Below, one piece after another: positions 13,065 to 58,962 of a stretch of 64,000 nucleotides of DNA. The number at the start of each line of letters is the position of its first letter. Position 1 is the first letter of the stretch. Below the pieces are notes generated by a model. The model was not told the DNA's origin. It made no database searches and saw only the letters and a list, made by a program, of their open reading frames with translations. Both the position numbers and the translations under genes were made by a program. Source of the stretch: Gemmatimonadota bacterium (GTDB taxonomy: Bacteria > Gemmatimonadota > Gemmatimonadetes > Gemmatimonadales > Gemmatimonadaceae); contig VHBQ01000003.1 of the NCBI GenBank assembly GCA_016871855.1, positions 28,484 through 92,483 of the forward strand, read 5' to 3'.

Positions 13065-14855
13065 ATGCTCTCCCCCGAATTTGTCCGTCTCCAGCGCGCC
13101 GTCGCCGGCCGCTATAGTCTCGTCGAGGAACTCGGACGCGGCGGGATGGGCGTGGTCTTTGCCGCGCGCGACGTGGCGCTCGACCGGCCGGTCGCCATCA
13201 AGCTGCTGCCGCCCGCGATGGGCGACAGCGAGGACTTCCGGCGTCGCTTCCTGCGCGAGGCGCAAACCGCGGCGTCGCTGTCCCATCCGAACGTCGTTCC
13301 GATCCACGCCGTCGAGGAGCGCGACGGGCTGGTCTTCTTCGTCATGACGCTCGTGGATGGCGAATCGCTTGGCGAGCGCATTCGCCGCCAGGGACCGTTG
13401 CCGGCACGCGACGGGCTGCGGATGGTGCAAGAGGTCGCGTGGGCGCTCGCGCACGCGCACGCGCGCGGCATCGTGCACCGTGATGTGAAGCCGGACAACA
13501 TCCTGTTGGAGCGTGATGGCGATCGGGCGCTGGTCACCGATTTTGGCATCGCGCATGCCGTGGGGCGCCACACGCCAATCGATGGCGTGACACTCGGAAC
13601 GCCAGCGTACATGAGTCCGGAACAAGGCCGCGGCGAGGAACCGGATGCCCGGTCCGATCTCTACGCGCTCGGCGTCACGGCTTGGATGACCTTCACGGGT
13701 CATGGGCCGTTTCCCGGACCGACCGCCACCGCGTACCTGATGCAGCACGCGTCGGCTCCCGTTCCACGTCTTGCGGACGCGGCGCCAAGGCTGCCGAAGC
13801 GGGTCGCGGAGGCGATTGACCGCTGCCTCGCCAAGGAGCCCGCCGGCAGGTGGCCGAGCGCCGAGGCGCTCGCGCAGGCACTGTCGGAGCAGCGGGAGCG
13901 CCTGCCGGTTGTGGCGGCCCCCTTGCGCGCGTTCCTCCGCGATTGGGATCGCGTTGGCGCAGAGTTCGCCACGGTGGGAACCGGCGCCTTGGTGAGTCTC
14001 ATCCTCAGCGCGGCGCTCAGTGTCGTGGCGTGGTTGTACACCGGGTGGGATTCTTTCTCCATCAGCATCCTGCGCGACATCTACCTGTGGGCGGCGGGAC
14101 TCATGGGCGGACTGGCCGTCGAGCGCCTCGTGCGGTTGGGCCAGCCCGCGCGGACACTGTTGCGCGCCGGATACGGCGCGGAGAGTCTCTCGGTCGCGGT
14201 GGAACGCGAGCGAGCGGAGGAAAAGCCGGCCGCCGACGCGGGCGTTGACCGAACGGCGGCGGTAACCGGCACCGTGGCGACCGCAGTGGGTGCCGCGGCG
14301 GTCTACGGCTTGATTGAGACTTCCAGTGACGCGTTGATGATCACACTGGCCGCGCTGTCGGTGGTCGCTCCGACGCTGGCGGTGCGCTCGTGGTGGAAGG
14401 TCCTGATGCGTCGCAGCGCCGACGGACTCTGGAACCGCTTGGCGGCGGGTTGGCTGGGACGCTCGCTTCTCCGCGTCGCCGCCGTCGGGCTCGAGCCGGT
14501 GAGCCGCGCCCGGGTCGAGGACGGGGAACCCACGGTCGTGGCCCTGGGCGCCCGCGCGCGCGGGGCCTACGCGGCACTCCCTGCGGCGCAACGCGAGCTC
14601 TTCAAGGACGTGCCGATGCTGCTCGACCGCCTCGAGTCGGAAGCGATGGCCCTGCGCGCCGACTCGGCGTCGCAGCGGGCCGACGCGCGGTTCGTCGAGG
14701 CGACGTCGGCGATGGAGCTCCTTCGGCTCGAACTCATGAAACTCGGAACGGAACCGACCGCCCCCGGCGAGTTGACCGACGCCATCGAACGGGTGCGGGA
14801 GATCGGGCGGCACGTGGATGCGATGGCGGAGGTGCGCGACCTGTCAGACGATTGA
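13065..14855 (+). CDS. Ser/Thr protein kinase with membrane segments and conserved C-terminal region
   Basis: GRYSLVEELGRGGMGVVFAARDVALDRPVAIKLL...HRDVKPDNILLERDG...DFGIAHAVG...GTPAYMSPEQ; C-terminal hydrophobic segments and ALPAAQRELFKDVPMLLDRLESEAMALR. Confidence 0.92.
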   Translation: MLSPEFVRLQRAVAGRYSLVEELGRGGMGVVFAARDVALDRPVAIKLLPPAMGDSEDFRRRFLREAQTAASLSHPNVVPIHAVEERDGLVFFVMTLVDGESLGERIRRQGPLPARDGLRMVQEVAWALAHAHARGIVHRDVKPDNILLERDGDRALVTDFGIAHAVGRHTPIDGVTLGTPAYMSPEQGRGEEPDARSDLYALGVTAWMTFTGHGPFPGPTATAYLMQHASAPVPRLADAAPRLPKRVAEAIDRCLAKEPAGRWPSAEALAQALSEQRERLPVVAAPLRAFLRDWDRVGAEFATVGTGALVSLILSAALSVVAWLYTGWDSFSISILRDIYLWAAGLMGGLAVERLVRLGQPARTLLRAGYGAESLSVAVERERAEEKPAADAGVDRTAAVTGTVATAVGAAAVYGLIETSSDALMITLAALSVVAPTLAVRSWWKVLMRRSADGLWNRLAAGWLGRSLLRVAAVGLEPVSRARVEDGEPTVVALGARARGAYAALPAAQRELFKDVPMLLDRLESEAMALRADSASQRADARFVEATSAMELLRLELMKLGTEPTAPGELTDAIERVREIGRHVDAMAEVRDLSDD

Positions 14856-28144: not shown

Positions 28145-30004
28145 ATGCCGCCCACCTCGCGCGTCGATCCGCTGTTCGTCGAGTTTCAGCTGGCCGTGGC
28201 TGGGCGCTACTCGCTGGACCGCGAGTTGGGGCGCGGCGGCATGGGCATTGTCTACCTCGCGCGCGACGTGCAACTGGATCGGCACGTCGCCATCAAGGTG
28301 CTGCCGCCGGAGCGCGGCCTCGACGGGGACGTTCGCGATCGGTTCCTGCGCGAGGCGCGCCTCGCCGCCAAGCTGTCGCACCCGAATATCGTGCCGATCC
28401 ACGCCGTGGACGAAGCGGCGCAGTTTGTCTTCTACGTGATGGCGTATGTGGACGGCGAGACCCTCGCCGAGCGCGTGCGGACCCGCGGCCCGATGGCCGC
28501 CGCCGAAGCCACGAAGGTCCTGCGGGAGGTCGCGTGGGCGCTGGGGCACGCCCACGCCCAGGGCGTCGTCCACCGCGACGTGAAGCCCGAGAACATCCTG
28601 CTCGAGCGCGGCACGGGGCGGGCGTTGGTCACCGATTTCGGCATCGCGGCCGCCGCCGGCACGGAGGACGCGGGGGCGGTGGCGGGAACGCCGGAGTACA
28701 TGAGCCCTGAGCAGGCACTGGGCCACGCGGCGGATGCCCGCTCCGACATCTACGAACTCGGCGCGACCGCCTTCTTTGTGTGCACGGGCCGTCCGCCATT
28801 CACGGGCGCCGGCGCGGTGGACGTGCTGGCCAAGCAGGTGGCCGCCCCCACGCCTGCCCTCACGGTTCCGGGGACGAGCATCCCGCGCGGGCTGGCGCAC
28901 CTCATTGAGAAGTGCCTGGTGAAGGAGCCGGCCGGACGGCCACAGAGCGCGCTCGCGCTGGCCGAGCAGCTTGGCGCGGTGGTCGAGGAGCGGCGAGAGA
29001 TTCCGGCGGCACTGCGCGCGTTCGTGAAGCGCGACGGGCGCATACTCAGCACGGCGGGCGTCCTCGTGGTCGGGTACATCGGCCTGACGGCGCTCGTCGC
29101 GATCGGGATGACTGCCGGCCTCTGGGCCGTCGCGCTGGTCGGAGCGGGGGTACTCATCGCGCCGCTGGTTGCTATGGTGTCGGCCGCGCGCAAGCTGTTA
29201 CGGCGCGGCTTCGAGTTGCCCGACCTCCGGCTGGCGTTCGATCACGAGATCCAGCAGCTACGCGAGGAGTTCCACGCCGCGGGGCTACAGGAGCGACTCG
29301 GCCTTGAGGCGGCGGCGACGGGTGTGGCGCTGGTGAGCGGCGCGTTGGCAATCACACTGAATGTGCTCCAGGTCTTCTTCGACTCCGGCCGCATGGCGAT
29401 GCTCGGCACGCCGCTGCTGATGTTCGGCGTGGTTGGCGGCCTGGTCGTGCGTTCGATGCTCCGCAATCGTCGCCCGTACGCTGCGGTGCAGGGTTGGGCC
29501 AAGGTGTGGCTCGGGCGGCTCGGCCGCGCGGTGTTTGCCGTTGCGCGCCGGTTGGGCGGCCGACCCCAAAACGGCGCGGCGACCACGCACCGCGCTACGG
29601 AGCTTGCCATCGGACTTGCCGCCAACGAGCTCTTCTCCTCGCTGCCGCGCGACACGCGCAAGCGCCTCGGCGACGTGCCGGGAATCGTCGACTCGCTGCA
29701 GCGCGATGCGGAGACGCTCCGCGGACACCACCAGCGGTTGCAGGACGCCTTGGCCGACGCGGGCGAGTCCGCGACCGGCGACGAGTACGCCACGGTGCGG
29801 CGCATGCGCGATGAGCTCCGCGACCGCCACCGTGAGGTCGTCTCGACGCTTGAGCGGATGCGGCTCGACCTCCTGCGCCTGCACGCCGGCGCGGTATCGG
29901 TGGACGGCGTGACCACGCAGGTGGGGCTCGCCGGCGACGTGGCGCAGGAAGTGCGCCGATTGCTCGAGGCGCGCGGCGAGCTTGAGCGGTTCCTCGCGCG
30001 TTAG
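28145..30004 (+). CDS. Ser/Thr protein kinase, paralogous to 13065..14855
   Basis: GRYSLDRELGRGGMGIVYLARDVQLDRHVAIKVL...HRDVKPENILLERGTG...DFGIAAAAG...GTPEYMSPEQ; C-terminal SSLPRDTRKRLGDVPGIVDSLQRDAETLR. Confidence 0.93.
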   Translation: MPPTSRVDPLFVEFQLAVAGRYSLDRELGRGGMGIVYLARDVQLDRHVAIKVLPPERGLDGDVRDRFLREARLAAKLSHPNIVPIHAVDEAAQFVFYVMAYVDGETLAERVRTRGPMAAAEATKVLREVAWALGHAHAQGVVHRDVKPENILLERGTGRALVTDFGIAAAAGTEDAGAVAGTPEYMSPEQALGHAADARSDIYELGATAFFVCTGRPPFTGAGAVDVLAKQVAAPTPALTVPGTSIPRGLAHLIEKCLVKEPAGRPQSALALAEQLGAVVEERREIPAALRAFVKRDGRILSTAGVLVVGYIGLTALVAIGMTAGLWAVALVGAGVLIAPLVAMVSAARKLLRRGFELPDLRLAFDHEIQQLREEFHAAGLQERLGLEAAATGVALVSGALAITLNVLQVFFDSGRMAMLGTPLLMFGVVGGLVVRSMLRNRRPYAAVQGWAKVWLGRLGRAVFAVARRLGGRPQNGAATTHRATELAIGLAANELFSSLPRDTRKRLGDVPGIVDSLQRDAETLRGHHQRLQDALADAGESATGDEYATVRRMRDELRDRHREVVSTLERMRLDLLRLHAGAVSVDGVTTQVGLAGDVAQEVRRLLEARGELERFLAR

Positions 30005-51069: not shown

Positions 51070-51168
51070 GAGAGACCATTAATGATAGGCCCTCAGCGCA
51101 TACCCTGCACGTCCCGCGGTGTGCCGCGTCGTCGCCACAGCGCCCGCTGTGGGGTATTTTCTCCGCGA

Positions 51169-54100
51169 GTGACAATCCTCGACCCGTCGCCGCCCACGGT
51201 TCGCCGAACCGGGCCCGTCCTGCCCCCGTCGGCGTGGATGCCGTCGGCGGCCGCCATTGTCCTGACGGCGGCCGCGTGGATTCGCACGCAGCAGCCGCTC
51301 TGGCTCTGGCTGTGTGCGTTCGCTTCGCTCGTGGCCATCGCCGCGCTGGGACGTCGCCGCCGCACGGGGCGCGAGACGGTCTTCCTGGCCCTCGCCGTCC
51401 TCTTCATCGCCGACGGCACCTGGACGCGCGCGGAGCGGGTGCGGCGCGAATCGGACTGGCCCACGTGGAGCCGGCAGGCGGCGGCGCGCGGCACGGAGGC
51501 GTTCGCCCGCCGCATCGAGACGACGGCGGCCGACCTGCTGGACGCGGTGCAGCGCGCGGCGTCCGACGGTGTCTCGGGGGCGGAGGCGTGGGATGCGATG
51601 GAACGCGTGGTGCGGTCGCATCCCGAACGGGCGATCCTGCGGAGTCGCGCCGGACAGCCGGAGGTGTGGGCGGGCCGACTGCACGTCCCCGTGGACTCGC
51701 TTCCGGCCACGCACGGCGTGATGGCCACGCCCTTCTATCTGGCGCTCTACGTTGCCGCGACGCGAGGGGAGGTGACGGTCGCGGCCACCGCGGTGCTGCA
51801 CGCCGAGCCTCCGGCGGATGAACTGGTGCCGGCGCTCGACGCACGCGCGTCGCGTCCGGCCGGGATCGCCGGCTTTTCGTTCGCACCGGCCGACGCGCCC
51901 GGTGATTCCCTGCGGCGCGTCGTCGTGAACGGCGATGCGGTCCTCGCGGTGCGAGCGGTCGTCGCCCCGCCTGAGGTGGTGGCGCTGGAGGCGCTGGAGC
52001 GGTCGCGCTGGCGCGGTGGCGTGGCGCTCGCCGCGCTGGCGCTGCTCTTCATTGCGACGGCGTGGCGTCGTGAGCATCACCTGCGCACGCGGCTGGTCGC
52101 GCTGCTCACAGTGACCGCGTCCGTGGCGGTGCTGCCGCTCGGGTCGTTCTCGAACCTCTCGCGCTGGTTTGACGCGGGCCTCTACTTCACACCGACGCTG
52201 GGCCCGCTGAGTGCCAACGTCGCGGCACTGATCACGGTCAGCGCGCTCACGCTAATGGCGCTCTTCGCCGTGCTGCGCCACCGCCCGGGGAGCCAGGCCC
52301 GGTGGGTGTGGGGCGCCGTCCTCGTGGTCGTCGCGTCCGTCACGCCGTTCCTGCTTCGCGACCTGGCGCGCGGCATCCGACTGCCGCTTGACGGCACGCC
52401 GGCATCGCTGTGGCTGGCGTGGGAGGTTTCGATCTTCCTCGCGGCGTTTGCCGTGCTGCTGCTGGGAGTGACCGCGGGGCAGGCGGTGGTGGGCGCGCGG
52501 CGGGGCCTGCCCGGCTGGCCGGCGCCGTTGCTGGCCGGGCTCTCCGCGCTCATGGCGCCGATGCTGCTCGAGGCGCCGGGGCGGCTCCCCGGGTGGTATC
52601 CGGTGCTCTGGATCGCCGCCATCGCGGCGCTCGCGACGGCGCGCCGCGCCCGGCGCGCGCTGCTGCGCACCGCGTTCGTGGCGGCCTGTGGCGCCGTGAC
52701 CCTCGTCTGGTCGGCGTCGGTTCGGCAGCGCGTCCAACTCGCGCAGGCTGACGTGGTCGGGCTGGGCGCCGTGGATCCGGATGCCGCGTCGCTTCTCCAG
52801 CGGTTGGCGTCAGAGCTCGCGCTCGCGGCCGCGCCGACGAACCGCACGGCGCTGCTCGGCCGCTATGCAGCGAGTGAACTGGGGGCCGCCGGGTTCCCGG
52901 CGGAACTGACCGCGTGGGACTCGCTGGGACGGCCCGTGGCCGACCTGCGCGTCGCGATGGCGCCGGGAACGACCGAGGGACTCGCCGATTTCGCCGCCGA
53001 GGCGCGCCGGCTGGCTCGGCCCGTGCTGCGCGAGACCATCCCGGCTCCGCTCGCCCAACTGGTGCTGGCGGTGCCGCATCGCGGCGGCGATGTCACCACG
53101 GTCGTGGTCTCGCCGCGCACGAGACTGGTTCCAGCGGATCCGTTCATCGCGCTCGTGGGTCTCGGCCAGTCGCCCAACGCCGAGCCGCCGTACAGCCTGC
53201 AAGTGGGCGACGCGCGTGAGGTCTCGGCGCGTGCGGCGCGCTGGTCACGTCGCGCGAATGAGTTGCATGGCGACTGGGTGGTCCCCGTGGGCGACGCCGG
53301 GGCCGCGCGTGTGCACGCCCGCGTGGACTTGCGCGGACTCGAGGCGCTGGTACCGCGTGGCGCGCTGCTCGTGATGCTGAATGTGCTGCTCGTCTCGCTG
53401 CTGTGGGGCCTGCTCTTCGCCGCCGAGGGCACCGGCGTTCGCTGGCTGCGGGTGCAGGTGCGCGGCTGGCCGCGCAGCTACCGGTTGCGACTCTCGCTGG
53501 CCCTGTTTGCGTTCTTCGTGCTTCCTGCGGGAGGATTTGCGGCGTGGAGCTACCGCCGCCTGCAGGCGGATGATCGGCAGAGTCGCGACCTCCTCGTGCG
53601 CGAGACCCTGCGCGGCGTAGCGACCTCGTCCGACAGCGTGCAGTTGAGCGAGGCGGCCGCGCGCTTCGACACGCCGCTGCTGCTCTTCGCGGACGGGCTC
53701 CTCATCGGGACCAGCGATCCGCTGATCGATGCGCTCGCGCCTGTGGGCCGGCTCCTTCCCCCGGCTGTGGTGCGCGCGCTCGGCGACAACGATGAACTGC
53801 TCGCCGGAATGGACGAACGCGTCGGGCGCGGCCGTGTGCGGTTCGGCTACCTGACCATCGAGCCAGGTGGCGCGCGGCTCGTGCTCTCGGCGCCGGCGCG
53901 GAGCGACGAGCGGGCGCTCGACCGCCGCCGTCGCGACGTCGCCGTGCTGGTGCTGGTCGTCACGGCGCTGGGCGCGCTCGCCGCGTTCTGGCTCAGCGGC
54001 ATCGCCGCGCGCACGTTTGCGCGCCCCATCGACACCCTGCGGCGCGGTGCGCTTGCCGTGGCGGGGGGCGCGCGCGAACCGTTGCCTGGCGGTCAGCCGC

Positions 54101-55179
54101 CGGTGGAGTTCGAACCGGTCTTCGATGCCTTCCGCCGGATGGCCGCCGACTTGGGGGCGAGCCGTGATGCGCTGGAAGCGGCCGAGCGTCGGCTCGCGGC
54201 GGTGCTGCGCGATGTGGCGAGTGGCGTGGTGGCCGTTGATGCGGAGGGACGCATCACGCTCATCAACCCGCGGGCGGTGGCGCTGCTCCCCGACGGCTCG
54301 CTTCCCGGCGCCACGGCGGATGCGGTGCTCGACGCCCCGCTCGTCGAGCGGCTGCAGCGGTTCCTTGCCGGCGCGGCGGACCAGGAGGAGTTCGACATCG
54401 AGCGCCCAGGCGGCGTGCAACTGCACGTGCGGCTGACGCGGCTCGTGCGCGGCGCGCGCGGCGCCGTGATCACGCTCGATGACCTGAGCGAACTCGCGCG
54501 CGCTCAGCGCGTGCTGGCCTGGGGCGAGATGGCGCGGCAGGTGGCCCACGAGATCAAGAACCCGCTCACACCGATGCGCCTCGGCATGCAGCATCTCAGT
54601 CGTGCCCGGCGTGATCCGCGCGTGGATTTCGATGACGTGCTCGACGAAAACGTCGCGCGCATGCTTGCCGAGATCGACCGGCTGGATGAGATCGCCCGCG
54701 CCTTCAGCCGCTACGGCATGATCCCCGCCGAGCAGGCGCCGCCCGAGCCGGTGGATGTCGCGGCCGTGGTCGCCGACGTGGTGCGGCTGGAGCAGATCGG
54801 CGCCGGTGACGTCGAGTGGCAGCTCAGCGGCGGCGGCTCCGCGCTGATGGCGATGGCGCGCGAGACTGAACTGCGCGAGGTGCTGCTCAACATCCTCGAG
54901 AACGCGCGGCACTCCGGCGCGCGGCAGGTGCGCATTGCGCTCGGCAAGGGCGAGGGGGCGGTGCGCGTGGTGGTGCATGACGACGGGCACGGCATTCCGC
55001 CCAGCGTGCTGCCGAAGATCTTCGAGCCGCACTTCTCGACGCGCACCAGCGGCAGCGGACTCGGGCTCGCCATCAGCCGTCGCTTGATCGAGGGGTGGGG
55101 CGGCACCATCGAGGTCGCCAGCATCCCGAATCAGGGGACGACCGTCACCGTTCGTCTGGTCGGCCGCGGCGCCGCCTGA
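51169..55179 (+). CDS. Very large NtrY-like sensor histidine kinase (~1336 aa, GTG start)
   Basis: Multiple TM segments; HAMP-like RTFARPIDTLRRGALAVAGG; MARQVAHEIKNPLTPMRLGMQHL H-box; LLNILENARHSG N-box; VVHDDGHGIPPSVLPKIFEPHFSTRTSGSGLGLAISRRL. Confidence 0.9.
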   Translation: MTILDPSPPTVRRTGPVLPPSAWMPSAAAIVLTAAAWIRTQQPLWLWLCAFASLVAIAALGRRRRTGRETVFLALAVLFIADGTWTRAERVRRESDWPTWSRQAAARGTEAFARRIETTAADLLDAVQRAASDGVSGAEAWDAMERVVRSHPERAILRSRAGQPEVWAGRLHVPVDSLPATHGVMATPFYLALYVAATRGEVTVAATAVLHAEPPADELVPALDARASRPAGIAGFSFAPADAPGDSLRRVVVNGDAVLAVRAVVAPPEVVALEALERSRWRGGVALAALALLFIATAWRREHHLRTRLVALLTVTASVAVLPLGSFSNLSRWFDAGLYFTPTLGPLSANVAALITVSALTLMALFAVLRHRPGSQARWVWGAVLVVVASVTPFLLRDLARGIRLPLDGTPASLWLAWEVSIFLAAFAVLLLGVTAGQAVVGARRGLPGWPAPLLAGLSALMAPMLLEAPGRLPGWYPVLWIAAIAALATARRARRALLRTAFVAACGAVTLVWSASVRQRVQLAQADVVGLGAVDPDAASLLQRLASELALAAAPTNRTALLGRYAASELGAAGFPAELTAWDSLGRPVADLRVAMAPGTTEGLADFAAEARRLARPVLRETIPAPLAQLVLAVPHRGGDVTTVVVSPRTRLVPADPFIALVGLGQSPNAEPPYSLQVGDAREVSARAARWSRRANELHGDWVVPVGDAGAARVHARVDLRGLEALVPRGALLVMLNVLLVSLLWGLLFAAEGTGVRWLRVQVRGWPRSYRLRLSLALFAFFVLPAGGFAAWSYRRLQADDRQSRDLLVRETLRGVATSSDSVQLSEAAARFDTPLLLFADGLLIGTSDPLIDALAPVGRLLPPAVVRALGDNDELLAGMDERVGRGRVRFGYLTIEPGGARLVLSAPARSDERALDRRRRDVAVLVLVVTALGALAAFWLSGIAARTFARPIDTLRRGALAVAGGAREPLPGGQPPVEFEPVFDAFRRMAADLGASRDALEAAERRLAAVLRDVASGVVAVDAEGRITLINPRAVALLPDGSLPGATADAVLDAPLVERLQRFLAGAADQEEFDIERPGGVQLHVRLTRLVRGARGAVITLDDLSELARAQRVLAWGEMARQVAHEIKNPLTPMRLGMQHLSRARRDPRVDFDDVLDENVARMLAEIDRLDEIARAFSRYGMIPAEQAPPEPVDVAAVVADVVRLEQIGAGDVEWQLSGGGSALMAMARETELREVLLNILENARHSGARQVRIALGKGEGAVRVVVHDDGHGIPPSVLPKIFEPHFSTRTSGSGLGLAISRRLIEGWGGTIEVASIPNQGTTVTVRLVGRGAA

Positions 55180-55196
55180 CAGATTTACAGATTCCC

Positions 55197-56957
55197 ATGA
55201 GCCCCGCCGTTCCCATCGCGCCGCATACACGCTCCACCGGCATCCCGCCGCACCTCGACCGGTGGGAGCTTCCTCCCGGCTGGCGGTGGGGCGAGGAGGG
55301 CGTCTATACCGCGCACCGGCACGCCATGCAGTTGGTGGACGCGTTCGGGCGCGCGCTCGCTCTGGTGACGGCGCCGGATCCGGCGCACGAGAAGTGGCTG
55401 TTCGCGGAGGCGCGGCAACTCGCGCATCGCAACCACCCAAACATCCCGACCACGTACCACTTCTGGCGGCGGTACCGCGAGAGCCCGCGCGGGCCGGGAT
55501 ACCTGCGGCGCTGGGTGGCGGGCGAAACGGTTGGCGCGCGCCTGCGCCGCATCGGCACCGAGACGGTGCCGTACATGCTGCGCGTCCTGCGCGCCACGGG
55601 CTCGGCGCTCGCCTATCTGCACGACGCCGGCGCTACGCACGGTGCCGTTTCGCCTGACAACATCTACACCACGCCGGCCGGTCGGCTGTATCTGCTCGGC
55701 TGGCAATGGGCCGTTCCCGCGCAAGACGTTCCGGCCGGGCTGCGCCCGGATCCGGCCTTCGTGCCGCTCCCCAATGAACTCCTGACGGGCGCGTGGCGAC
55801 CGACGCCGGCAAGCGATCAGTGGCAGCTGGGGGCGGTCTGCTTCGCCATTCTCACGGGCGAGTTGCCCCCGCGTGATGAGGTGCCGCCGGTTCGCGTTGT
55901 GCGGCCGGAAGTGCCGGCCAGCGTCGCCGAGTTGGTGGATCGCGCCCTTGCCCCGTCGCCGGACGATCGGTTTTTCAATCTGTCCGGCCTGCTGCGCCAG
56001 ATCGAGCGCATCTCCGGCACCGGCACGCCGCTGCTCGTCGGCGTTGACCAGAGCTCAGGCGAATACCGGGCCGTCTCGGAGGAGGACCGCCTGCGCTGGG
56101 CGACGGGCGACGACTACGAAGTGCTCGCGTCGCTCGGCACGGGGCAGTTCGGTTCGGTCTGGCGCGTGCGCGACCTCTCGCTCGAGCGCGAGGTGGCGCT
56201 GAAGATGCTCCACCCGAACATCGCGCGGAACGAGGACGCCGTGGCGCGCTTCCGCCGCGAGGCGCGGCTCGCGGCGCAGCTCAATCATCCGGCAATCGTC
56301 CCGATCTACGCGTGGGACGCCAAGGGCGACGTCTCCTGGTACACGATGGAAGTGCAGGAGGAGGGTTCCGTCGCCGACCTCGTCGCGCGCAACGGCCCGC
56401 GCAGCATCGCCGAGATCGCGCCGCAGGTGGACGCGGTGCTCGACGGGCTTGGGCAGGCGCACACGAACGGGATCATTCACCGCGACATCAAGCCCGAGAA
56501 CATCCTCATCGACCGCTATCGCCGGTGGCGGCTGTCGGACTTCGGCATCGCGAACGCGCTGGGCGACGACCGTGTGGGCGCCTCGGGCACGCCCGCCTTT
56601 GCCGCGCCCGAGCAACTGCTCGGCGAAGCGCAGGGCGTGGCGGCCGATCTCTTCGCGGTGGCCGGGATCGTCGTCTTCGCGCTGACCGGGAAGCTGCCGT
56701 TCGGCGGCGGCGACGCGCGCGCGATTCTCGCGCAGCAGCTCGCCGGCAACGTGGACCTCGAGCAGTTCCCGCCAGAGCTGGCCGACTGGCTGCGCACGGC
56801 GCTGTCGGCCGATCCGGAACAGCGATTCCGCGACGCGGCGTCGATGCAGCGCGAATGGCGCGCGCTCACGCGCGAGCTCGCCCGCCAGGAACGGCATGCG
56901 ACGCGCTGGACGCGCTGGTGGAACGCGACGCGGCGCTTTTTCCTGAAGCCGCGATAG
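55197..56957 (+). CDS. Pseudokinase plus Ser/Thr protein kinase tandem protein
   Basis: N-terminal kinase-like lobe with HGAVSPDN and LLGW in place of HRD/DFG; C-terminal canonical kinase LGTGQFGSVWRVRDLSLEREVALKML...HRDIKPENILID...DFGIANALG. Confidence 0.9.
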   Translation: MSPAVPIAPHTRSTGIPPHLDRWELPPGWRWGEEGVYTAHRHAMQLVDAFGRALALVTAPDPAHEKWLFAEARQLAHRNHPNIPTTYHFWRRYRESPRGPGYLRRWVAGETVGARLRRIGTETVPYMLRVLRATGSALAYLHDAGATHGAVSPDNIYTTPAGRLYLLGWQWAVPAQDVPAGLRPDPAFVPLPNELLTGAWRPTPASDQWQLGAVCFAILTGELPPRDEVPPVRVVRPEVPASVAELVDRALAPSPDDRFFNLSGLLRQIERISGTGTPLLVGVDQSSGEYRAVSEEDRLRWATGDDYEVLASLGTGQFGSVWRVRDLSLEREVALKMLHPNIARNEDAVARFRREARLAAQLNHPAIVPIYAWDAKGDVSWYTMEVQEEGSVADLVARNGPRSIAEIAPQVDAVLDGLGQAHTNGIIHRDIKPENILIDRYRRWRLSDFGIANALGDDRVGASGTPAFAAPEQLLGEAQGVAADLFAVAGIVVFALTGKLPFGGGDARAILAQQLAGNVDLEQFPPELADWLRTALSADPEQRFRDAASMQREWRALTRELARQERHATRWTRWWNATRRFFLKPR

Positions 56958-58440: not shown

Positions 58441-58962
58441 ATGCCGCCTCGTCCTTCCGCCGCCGTCGCACCCTTGAGGATTCGCCGCTCCGCCATCGCC
58501 GGACGCGGGGCGTTCGCCACGCGCGACATCCGGAGGGGGGAGCGGCTCATCGAGTACCTCGGCCAGCGCATCTCGCACGCGATCGCCGACGCGCGATACG
58601 ACGACGCGACGATGACCAACCACCACACGTTTCTCTTTTCCGTGTCGCGGCAGACGGTGATTGACGCGTCGGTGAACGGCAACGATGCCCGGTTCATCAA
58701 TCACTCGTGCGATCCGAACTGCGAAGCGGTGATCACGCGCAGCCGCGTGTTCATCATCGCCATCAAGCCGATCGCGCAGGGCGATGAGCTCTTCTACGAC
58801 TACGCGTACGAGCGCGACGGCTCAGAGACGGCGGAGGACGAGCGGCACTACGCCTGCCGGTGCGGGGCGAAGAAGTGCCGCGGGACGATCCTTGCGCCGA
58901 CGAAACCGAAGAAGCTCAAGCCGCACCATGCGGCGGCGCGGCATACCGACAGGCACGTGTAG
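58441..58962 (+). CDS. SET-domain protein lysine methyltransferase-like, with post-SET cysteine motif
   Basis: IAGRGAFATRDIRRGERLIEYLGQRIS...NDARFINHSCDPNCEAVI...GDELFYDYAYE...YACRCGAKKCRGTI. Confidence 0.93.
   Translation: MPPRPSAAVAPLRIRRSAIAGRGAFATRDIRRGERLIEYLGQRISHAIADARYDDATMTNHHTFLFSVSRQTVIDASVNGNDARFINHSCDPNCEAVITRSRVFIIAIKPIAQGDELFYDYAYERDGSETAEDERHYACRCGAKKCRGTILAPTKPKKLKPHHAAARHTDRHV

Follow-up and report, generated by a model that had tools for sequence, protein, structure and literature searches.

A stand-alone pseudokinase-kinase tandem protein conserved across an order of Gemmatimonadota

Introduction

An inactive kinase-like domain placed before an active kinase in one chain is a feature of several described systems. 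The JAK family consists of tyrosine kinases with the layout FERM-SH2-JH2-JH1, in which the JH2 pseudokinase is followed by the JH1 kinase. In Gcn2 of eukaryotes, the YKD pseudokinase precedes a Ser/Thr (eIF2alpha) kinase, and it contacts this adjoining kinase and activates it (PMC4014428). Among bacterial proteins, PglW of type-2 BREX and a subset of DndF carry a pseudokinase and then a kinase in one polypeptide (PMC12839542). Bacterial pseudokinases with a Hanks-type fold and lost motifs have been described as ActPs1-3, GLW, DLHK, CP1 and DYD, and a 2025 review presents such proteins as families of unknown function, with no tandem with an active kinase mentioned (PMC12599244). The cis regulation of bacterial Hanks-type kinases and the roles of bacterial pseudokinases form a largely open field.

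In this study, we analyzed a tandem protein from a window of 64,000 nucleotides (the whole stretch of DNA under analysis, to which all unprefixed positions refer) of a Gemmatimonadota genome. This tandem bears on both topics, with a putative regulator and its likely target united in one 586-residue protein whose conservation extends over an order and includes complete genomes. Whether and how a dead kinase controls a live one, the question posed by JAK2 and Gcn2, could thus be approached in a simple single-chain bacterial protein. An earlier note on the sequence had called its layout JAK-like, which holds for the order of the domains and not for kinship. As in JAK/TYK2, a pseudokinase is followed by a catalytic C-terminal kinase, but the tandem has 586 aa made up of kinase domains only, without FERM, SH2 or receptor, is closest to the Ser/Thr kinase PknB rather than to Tyr kinases, and gives no evidence of common descent with the JAKs. 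Gcn2 has the same domain order, but it is eukaryotic and has further regulatory domains, for example a HisRS-related one, which are missing from the tandem. Among solved structures, PknB and PknA of Mycobacterium tuberculosis are nearest to both halves in sequence and in predicted fold; these possess a single kinase domain, to which PknB adds a membrane helix and PASTA repeats that are missing here.

Domain organization of the tandem protein

The tandem is encoded on the + strand at 55197..56957, in a single frame of 586 codons from the ATG at 55197 to the stop at 56955-56957, as given by ORF call and Pfam. The start codon fits the ortholog alignment, and all the sequence strings quoted in the earlier note were found in this ORF. 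The pseudokinase domain (residues ~15-281; 55239..56039, + strand) was delimited by homology, ortholog alignment and predicted fold. A linker (residues ~282-304; 56040..56108, +), with E296, R298 and R300 conserved in the ortholog alignment, runs into a GDDYE stretch that is common to the type-B tandem described below. It is followed by the catalytic Hanks-type Ser/Thr kinase domain (residues ~305-560; 56109..56876, +), assigned by Pfam and alignment. The C-terminal basic/aromatic tail (56877..56954, +), delimited by ortholog alignment and AlphaFold2, reads TRWTRWWNATRRFFLKPR in the window and is PWWRR-like in many orthologs; a peripheral membrane or partner contact is a possible role for it. 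No membrane helix is evident in the 586 residues. The protein is probably a cytosolic PknB-like Ser/Thr kinase with a built-in pseudokinase. An assembly or frameshift error as the source of the fusion was ruled out, as well over 100 genomes carry it in one intact ORF.

The C-terminal half scores 142 bits against Pfam PF00069, has all kinase motifs and finds PknB as its closest solved structure. In the alignment of 48 type-A proteins, which come from the family of the window genome and include two divergent paralogs, K336, E355, H428-R429-D430, N435, D448-F449-G450 and P471-E472 are invariant (48/48), and every protein displays the Gly loop, Lys, alpha-C Glu, HRDxKxxN, DFG and APE of a Hanks-type kinase. 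The catalytic residues are likewise present in 31-32 of 32 type-B proteins. The complete C-terminal kinase (VALKML, HRDIKPEN, DFG) that had been read from the sequence is therefore confirmed.

The N-terminal half is more degenerate, and its score against the Pfam Pkinase model (PF00069) is 25.5 bits with an E value of 1e-5, under the curated cut-off of 31.7 bits. Its residues 59-259, however, match M. tuberculosis PknA with an E value of 7.7e-15. AlphaFold2 models, built from a shallow six-row alignment, display the complete order of kinase strands and helices for the N-half alone (pLDDT 66, pTM 0.65), with modest confidence in the N-lobe and good confidence in the C-lobe, and the order of kinase elements in both halves of the full-length protein (mean pLDDT 73.6, pTM 0.56). 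PknB and PknA were the top PDB matches of the N-half model in Foldseek (E value 2.6e-14, TM ~0.6, 20-25% identity). We conclude that the N-half is a genuine kinase homologue with a predicted kinase fold. The earlier note had called this half kinase-like and proposed structure prediction as the check; both the PknA match and the predicted fold bear it out. The full-length model was set aside as evidence for contact between the domains because of its pTM of only 0.56.

All three catalytic motifs, namely the Lys, the HRD Asp and the DFG Asp, are gone from the N-half in 48/48 type-A proteins. The beta-3 Lys is replaced by Val in 44 and by Ile in 4 (V57 in the window protein), the HRD Asp by Ala in 44/48 and otherwise by Gly, Cys or Ser (H148-G149-A150 in the window), and DFG by LLGW, with L167-G168-W169 in the window and the Trp at position 169 in 48/48. 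The loss of the HRD Asp and DFG noted earlier is thus fixed in these 48 proteins, and two further losses in the type-A N-half, of the beta-3 Lys and of the Gly-rich loop, can be added to it. By contrast, the alpha-C Glu71, His148, the APE-like Glu194 and the alpha-F Asp207 are invariant (48/48). A W/P-rich lead-in is also conserved, with P17, H19, W23, L25, P26, W29 and W31. Losses fixed in all 48 proteins beside invariant structural residues denote a pattern that is not due to chance. Judged from these residues, the N-half is predicted to be incapable of conventional phosphoryl transfer, the ATP site having apparently been dismantled.

Distribution and phylogenetic analysis

A total of 395 Gemmatimonadota genomes were surveyed with the N-half as query. 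The type-A fusion was found, normally in one copy, in 128 of the 140 sampled genomes of the window's family, f1 (N-half E value <=1e-40); genus g13 of this family is without it in 4/4 sampled genomes. A type-B clade of the same fusion (loci L003-L005 and L156-L185) is present in 61/69 of the genomes sampled from the sister families f2 and f3, which belong to the same order (E value <=1e-33). These counts answer the search for the same architecture in other genomes that the earlier note had proposed. The remaining families of the phylum gave no comparable N-half match. Thirty genomes of other phyla returned only a generic continuum of kinases for the N-half profile, with a best score of 137 bits and no ortholog seen; such a profile would miss unrelated tandems of the same layout. 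Among 115 other long kinase ORFs, the only ones with two kinase domains were a type-B protein and PglW.

Type-B N-halves display a different set of substitutions. The beta-3 Lys is Arg in 31/32, HRD has become [V/L/M]-R-R (VRR) with Asp replaced by Arg in 30/32, and DFG has become DLR with the DFG Asp retained in 32/32. The APE motif and the alpha-F Asp are retained in these 32 proteins.

A phylogenetic analysis was performed together with 119 other bacterial kinase domains, including those of the window genome. The N-halves of types A and B form one clade (support 0.986) and the C-halves form another (0.998), and the linker RLR[RW]A..GDDYE is common to both types. As each half is one clade, a single fusion probably took place before the families split, and the simplest reading is that types A and B afterwards decayed by different routes. 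The long branches of the N-halves call for caution on this grouping; with the pseudokinase of PglW included, this sequence joined the N-halves on very long branches and the support decreased to 0.74.

PglW resembles the tandem in that its active kinase is immediately preceded by an inactive kinase-like domain. A full-length PglW with a degenerate and then an intact kinase domain (L206, genome G167) was the only one among 200 genomes of the phylum; its pseudokinase reads HRGLSPAS and RDWHTA, which is reminiscent of the decay in type A. PglW differs, however, in its 1400-1600 aa, its NERD, DNA-binding and iSTAND domains and its location in a defence cluster, whereas the tandem has 586 aa and none of these domains; a Pfam scan found no NERD or C-terminal sensory domains in it. 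The PglW kinase also falls outside the clade of the tandem C-halves. Membership of the tandem in PglW or MADS6 was rejected, since its NCBIfam matches are far under the cut-off (108 bits against 990 for PglW NF033442) and its PADLOC matches are spread over many kinase models, which is a generic signal. The published motifs of ActPs1-3, GLW, DLHK, CP1 and DYD, such as GLW in place of HRD, are unlike HGA/LLGW or VRR of the tandem, as far as the descriptions in PMC12599244 allow comparison. In the openly accessible papers searched, we found no stand-alone bacterial pseudokinase-kinase protein. The earlier remark that the layout is unusual in bacteria therefore applies to its stand-alone, single-copy and order-wide form, while the domain order itself is shared by PglW and some DndF.

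Gene neighbourhood

A sensor histidine kinase gene with HisKA and HATPase_c domains at the C-terminus by Pfam (51160..55179, + strand, start approximate) ends with its stop at 55179, 17 bp upstream of the tandem in the window. In type-A loci of 20 kb, the histidine kinase is directly upstream and co-oriented in 15/19; in three, the tandem is inverted with an aldehyde dehydrogenase gene between the two, and one locus lacks the histidine kinase. The conserved type-A neighbours are the histidine kinase, an efflux operon, the aldehyde dehydrogenase and a SET protein, not defence genes. No histidine kinase was found beside the tandem in two type-B loci tested. The large adjacent histidine kinase pointed out earlier is thus a feature of the window and of most type-A loci, and a partnership fixed for the whole order is not supported. 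In nine of the type-B loci tested, including 7/7 of genus g34, a queE-like radical-SAM gene and an HD-domain gene are found directly upstream, preceded by queC where longer loci show it. The architecture is constant and the neighbours are variable, so only in type A is the histidine kinase a candidate partner. As a separate observation, queE-like radical-SAM and HD_4 genes, preceded by queC, lie directly upstream of the tandem and in the same direction in a part of the type-B genomes (L204:6451-8395, L205, L003, L005 and L156-L162).

Putative role of the pseudokinase half

The tandem is real, not an artefact, and widely conserved, and from its sequence we infer a regulatory mechanism. We consider it fairly probable that the pseudokinase serves the C-terminal kinase in cis, either allosterically or as a docking module. 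The C-terminal domain would carry out phosphorylation, with the N-terminal fold, kept by selection, as its partner; for example, the pseudokinase might stand in for one of the two protomers that pair back to back through their N-lobes in the dimer proposed to activate PknB-type kinases. Gcn2, another Ser/Thr kinase, provides a reported precedent for a pseudokinase that acts on the adjoining kinase (PMC4014428). The back-to-back PknB dimer has been proposed (cited in PMC6333020) to have an allosteric role in autophosphorylation, and the bacterial pseudokinase MviN (ActPs3) forms a PknB-like back-to-back dimer (PMC12599244). A more specific form, in which the tandem is a vertically inherited housekeeping protein of single origin outside phage defence and its pseudokinase permanently replaces one protomer of a PknB-type dimer, is proposed only tentatively.

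PknB mutants place Leu33 of PknB in the dimer interface, and the residues at the matching position of the tandem are compatible with an internal hetero-dimer of the two halves. This position is Leu in the C-halves of 48/48 type-A and 32/32 type-B proteins, and in the N-halves it is Leu or Ile in 31/32 of type B and Leu or Phe in type A. Leu is common there in bacterial kinases, which makes this a weak indication. If the regulatory reading is true, the decay to HGA/LLGW in one type and to VRR/DLR in the other amounts to a natural experiment that could tell which kinase elements non-catalytic regulation requires.

A decaying, functionless duplicate could also account for an N-half with a Pfam score under the cut-off and slightly faster evolution, its mean pairwise identity being 59% against 66% for the C-half in the 48 type-A proteins. 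This is scarcely credible, as dN/dS in 13 pairs is far below 1 in the N-half (0.03-0.24) as in the C-half (0.02-0.20), a total of 47 N-half positions are near-invariant in the 48 proteins, and the tandem is retained order-wide. Purifying selection acts on both halves, and the similar ranges indicate that the dead half is almost as constrained as the live one. A fusion kept once per genome across nearly the whole order almost certainly means that the dead half does a job. That some genomes split the tandem was ruled out, since nearly all of the short ORFs that were re-fetched end at a contig edge; the exceptions are G137, where the tandem is interrupted within the N-half, and G262, where the match starts at the contig start.

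That job could be to recruit substrates or upstream proteins, such as the adjacent histidine kinase, as a scaffold or sensor, leaving the catalytic state unchanged. EssB and MviN are pseudokinases that serve as scaffolds (PMC12599244), and the PPHLxxWxLPPxWxWG lead-in, RGPGYLRRW and SDQWQL are found only in type A, which also has the histidine kinase neighbour. However, type B has other neighbours and an identical architecture, so one fixed partner cannot explain the fusion, and we regard this role as unlikely. Still more improbable is use of the old active-site pocket for nucleotide or ligand binding or for a different chemistry, as in SelO and SidJ. The DFG Asp (32/32) and the beta-3 Arg (31/32) of type B would make nucleotide or metal binding conceivable there, but none of the 48 type-A proteins retains the beta-3 Lys, the Gly loop, the HRD Asp or DFG, and the pockets of the two types share little beyond the alpha-C Glu and structural residues.

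Variant loci and other genes in the window

A second, divergent tandem copy lies beside the normal one in two genomes of genus g12 (L111 and L112; G040 and G090), with 42-46% identity to the window N-half and an open frame of ~700 codons. In L001:7941-11699, L151, L153, L155 and L091 (G307, G259, G027 and G169, genus g9), the tandem ORF reads into a TonB-dependent receptor, which is a separate gene near the tandem in other genomes; the same read-through is found in L152 (G249, genus g2). These frames have ~1250-1310 codons, with a signal-peptide-like stretch between the two parts and no stop, and the receptor part of L001 contains Plug and beta-barrel domains by Pfam. They encode either a polyprotein or a receptor with its own start codon inside the frame; ATG/GTG codons that could serve as such a start precede the hydrophobic stretch.

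SET domains are best known from eukaryotic methyltransferases. In the window, a SET-domain protein (PF00856, 90 bits) is encoded at 58441-58962 (+), and it is found near the tandem in several relatives. Two more Ser/Thr kinase domains are located in the window, at ~13113-13877 and 28208-28960 (+), and the genome holds ~20 Ser/Thr kinase domains.
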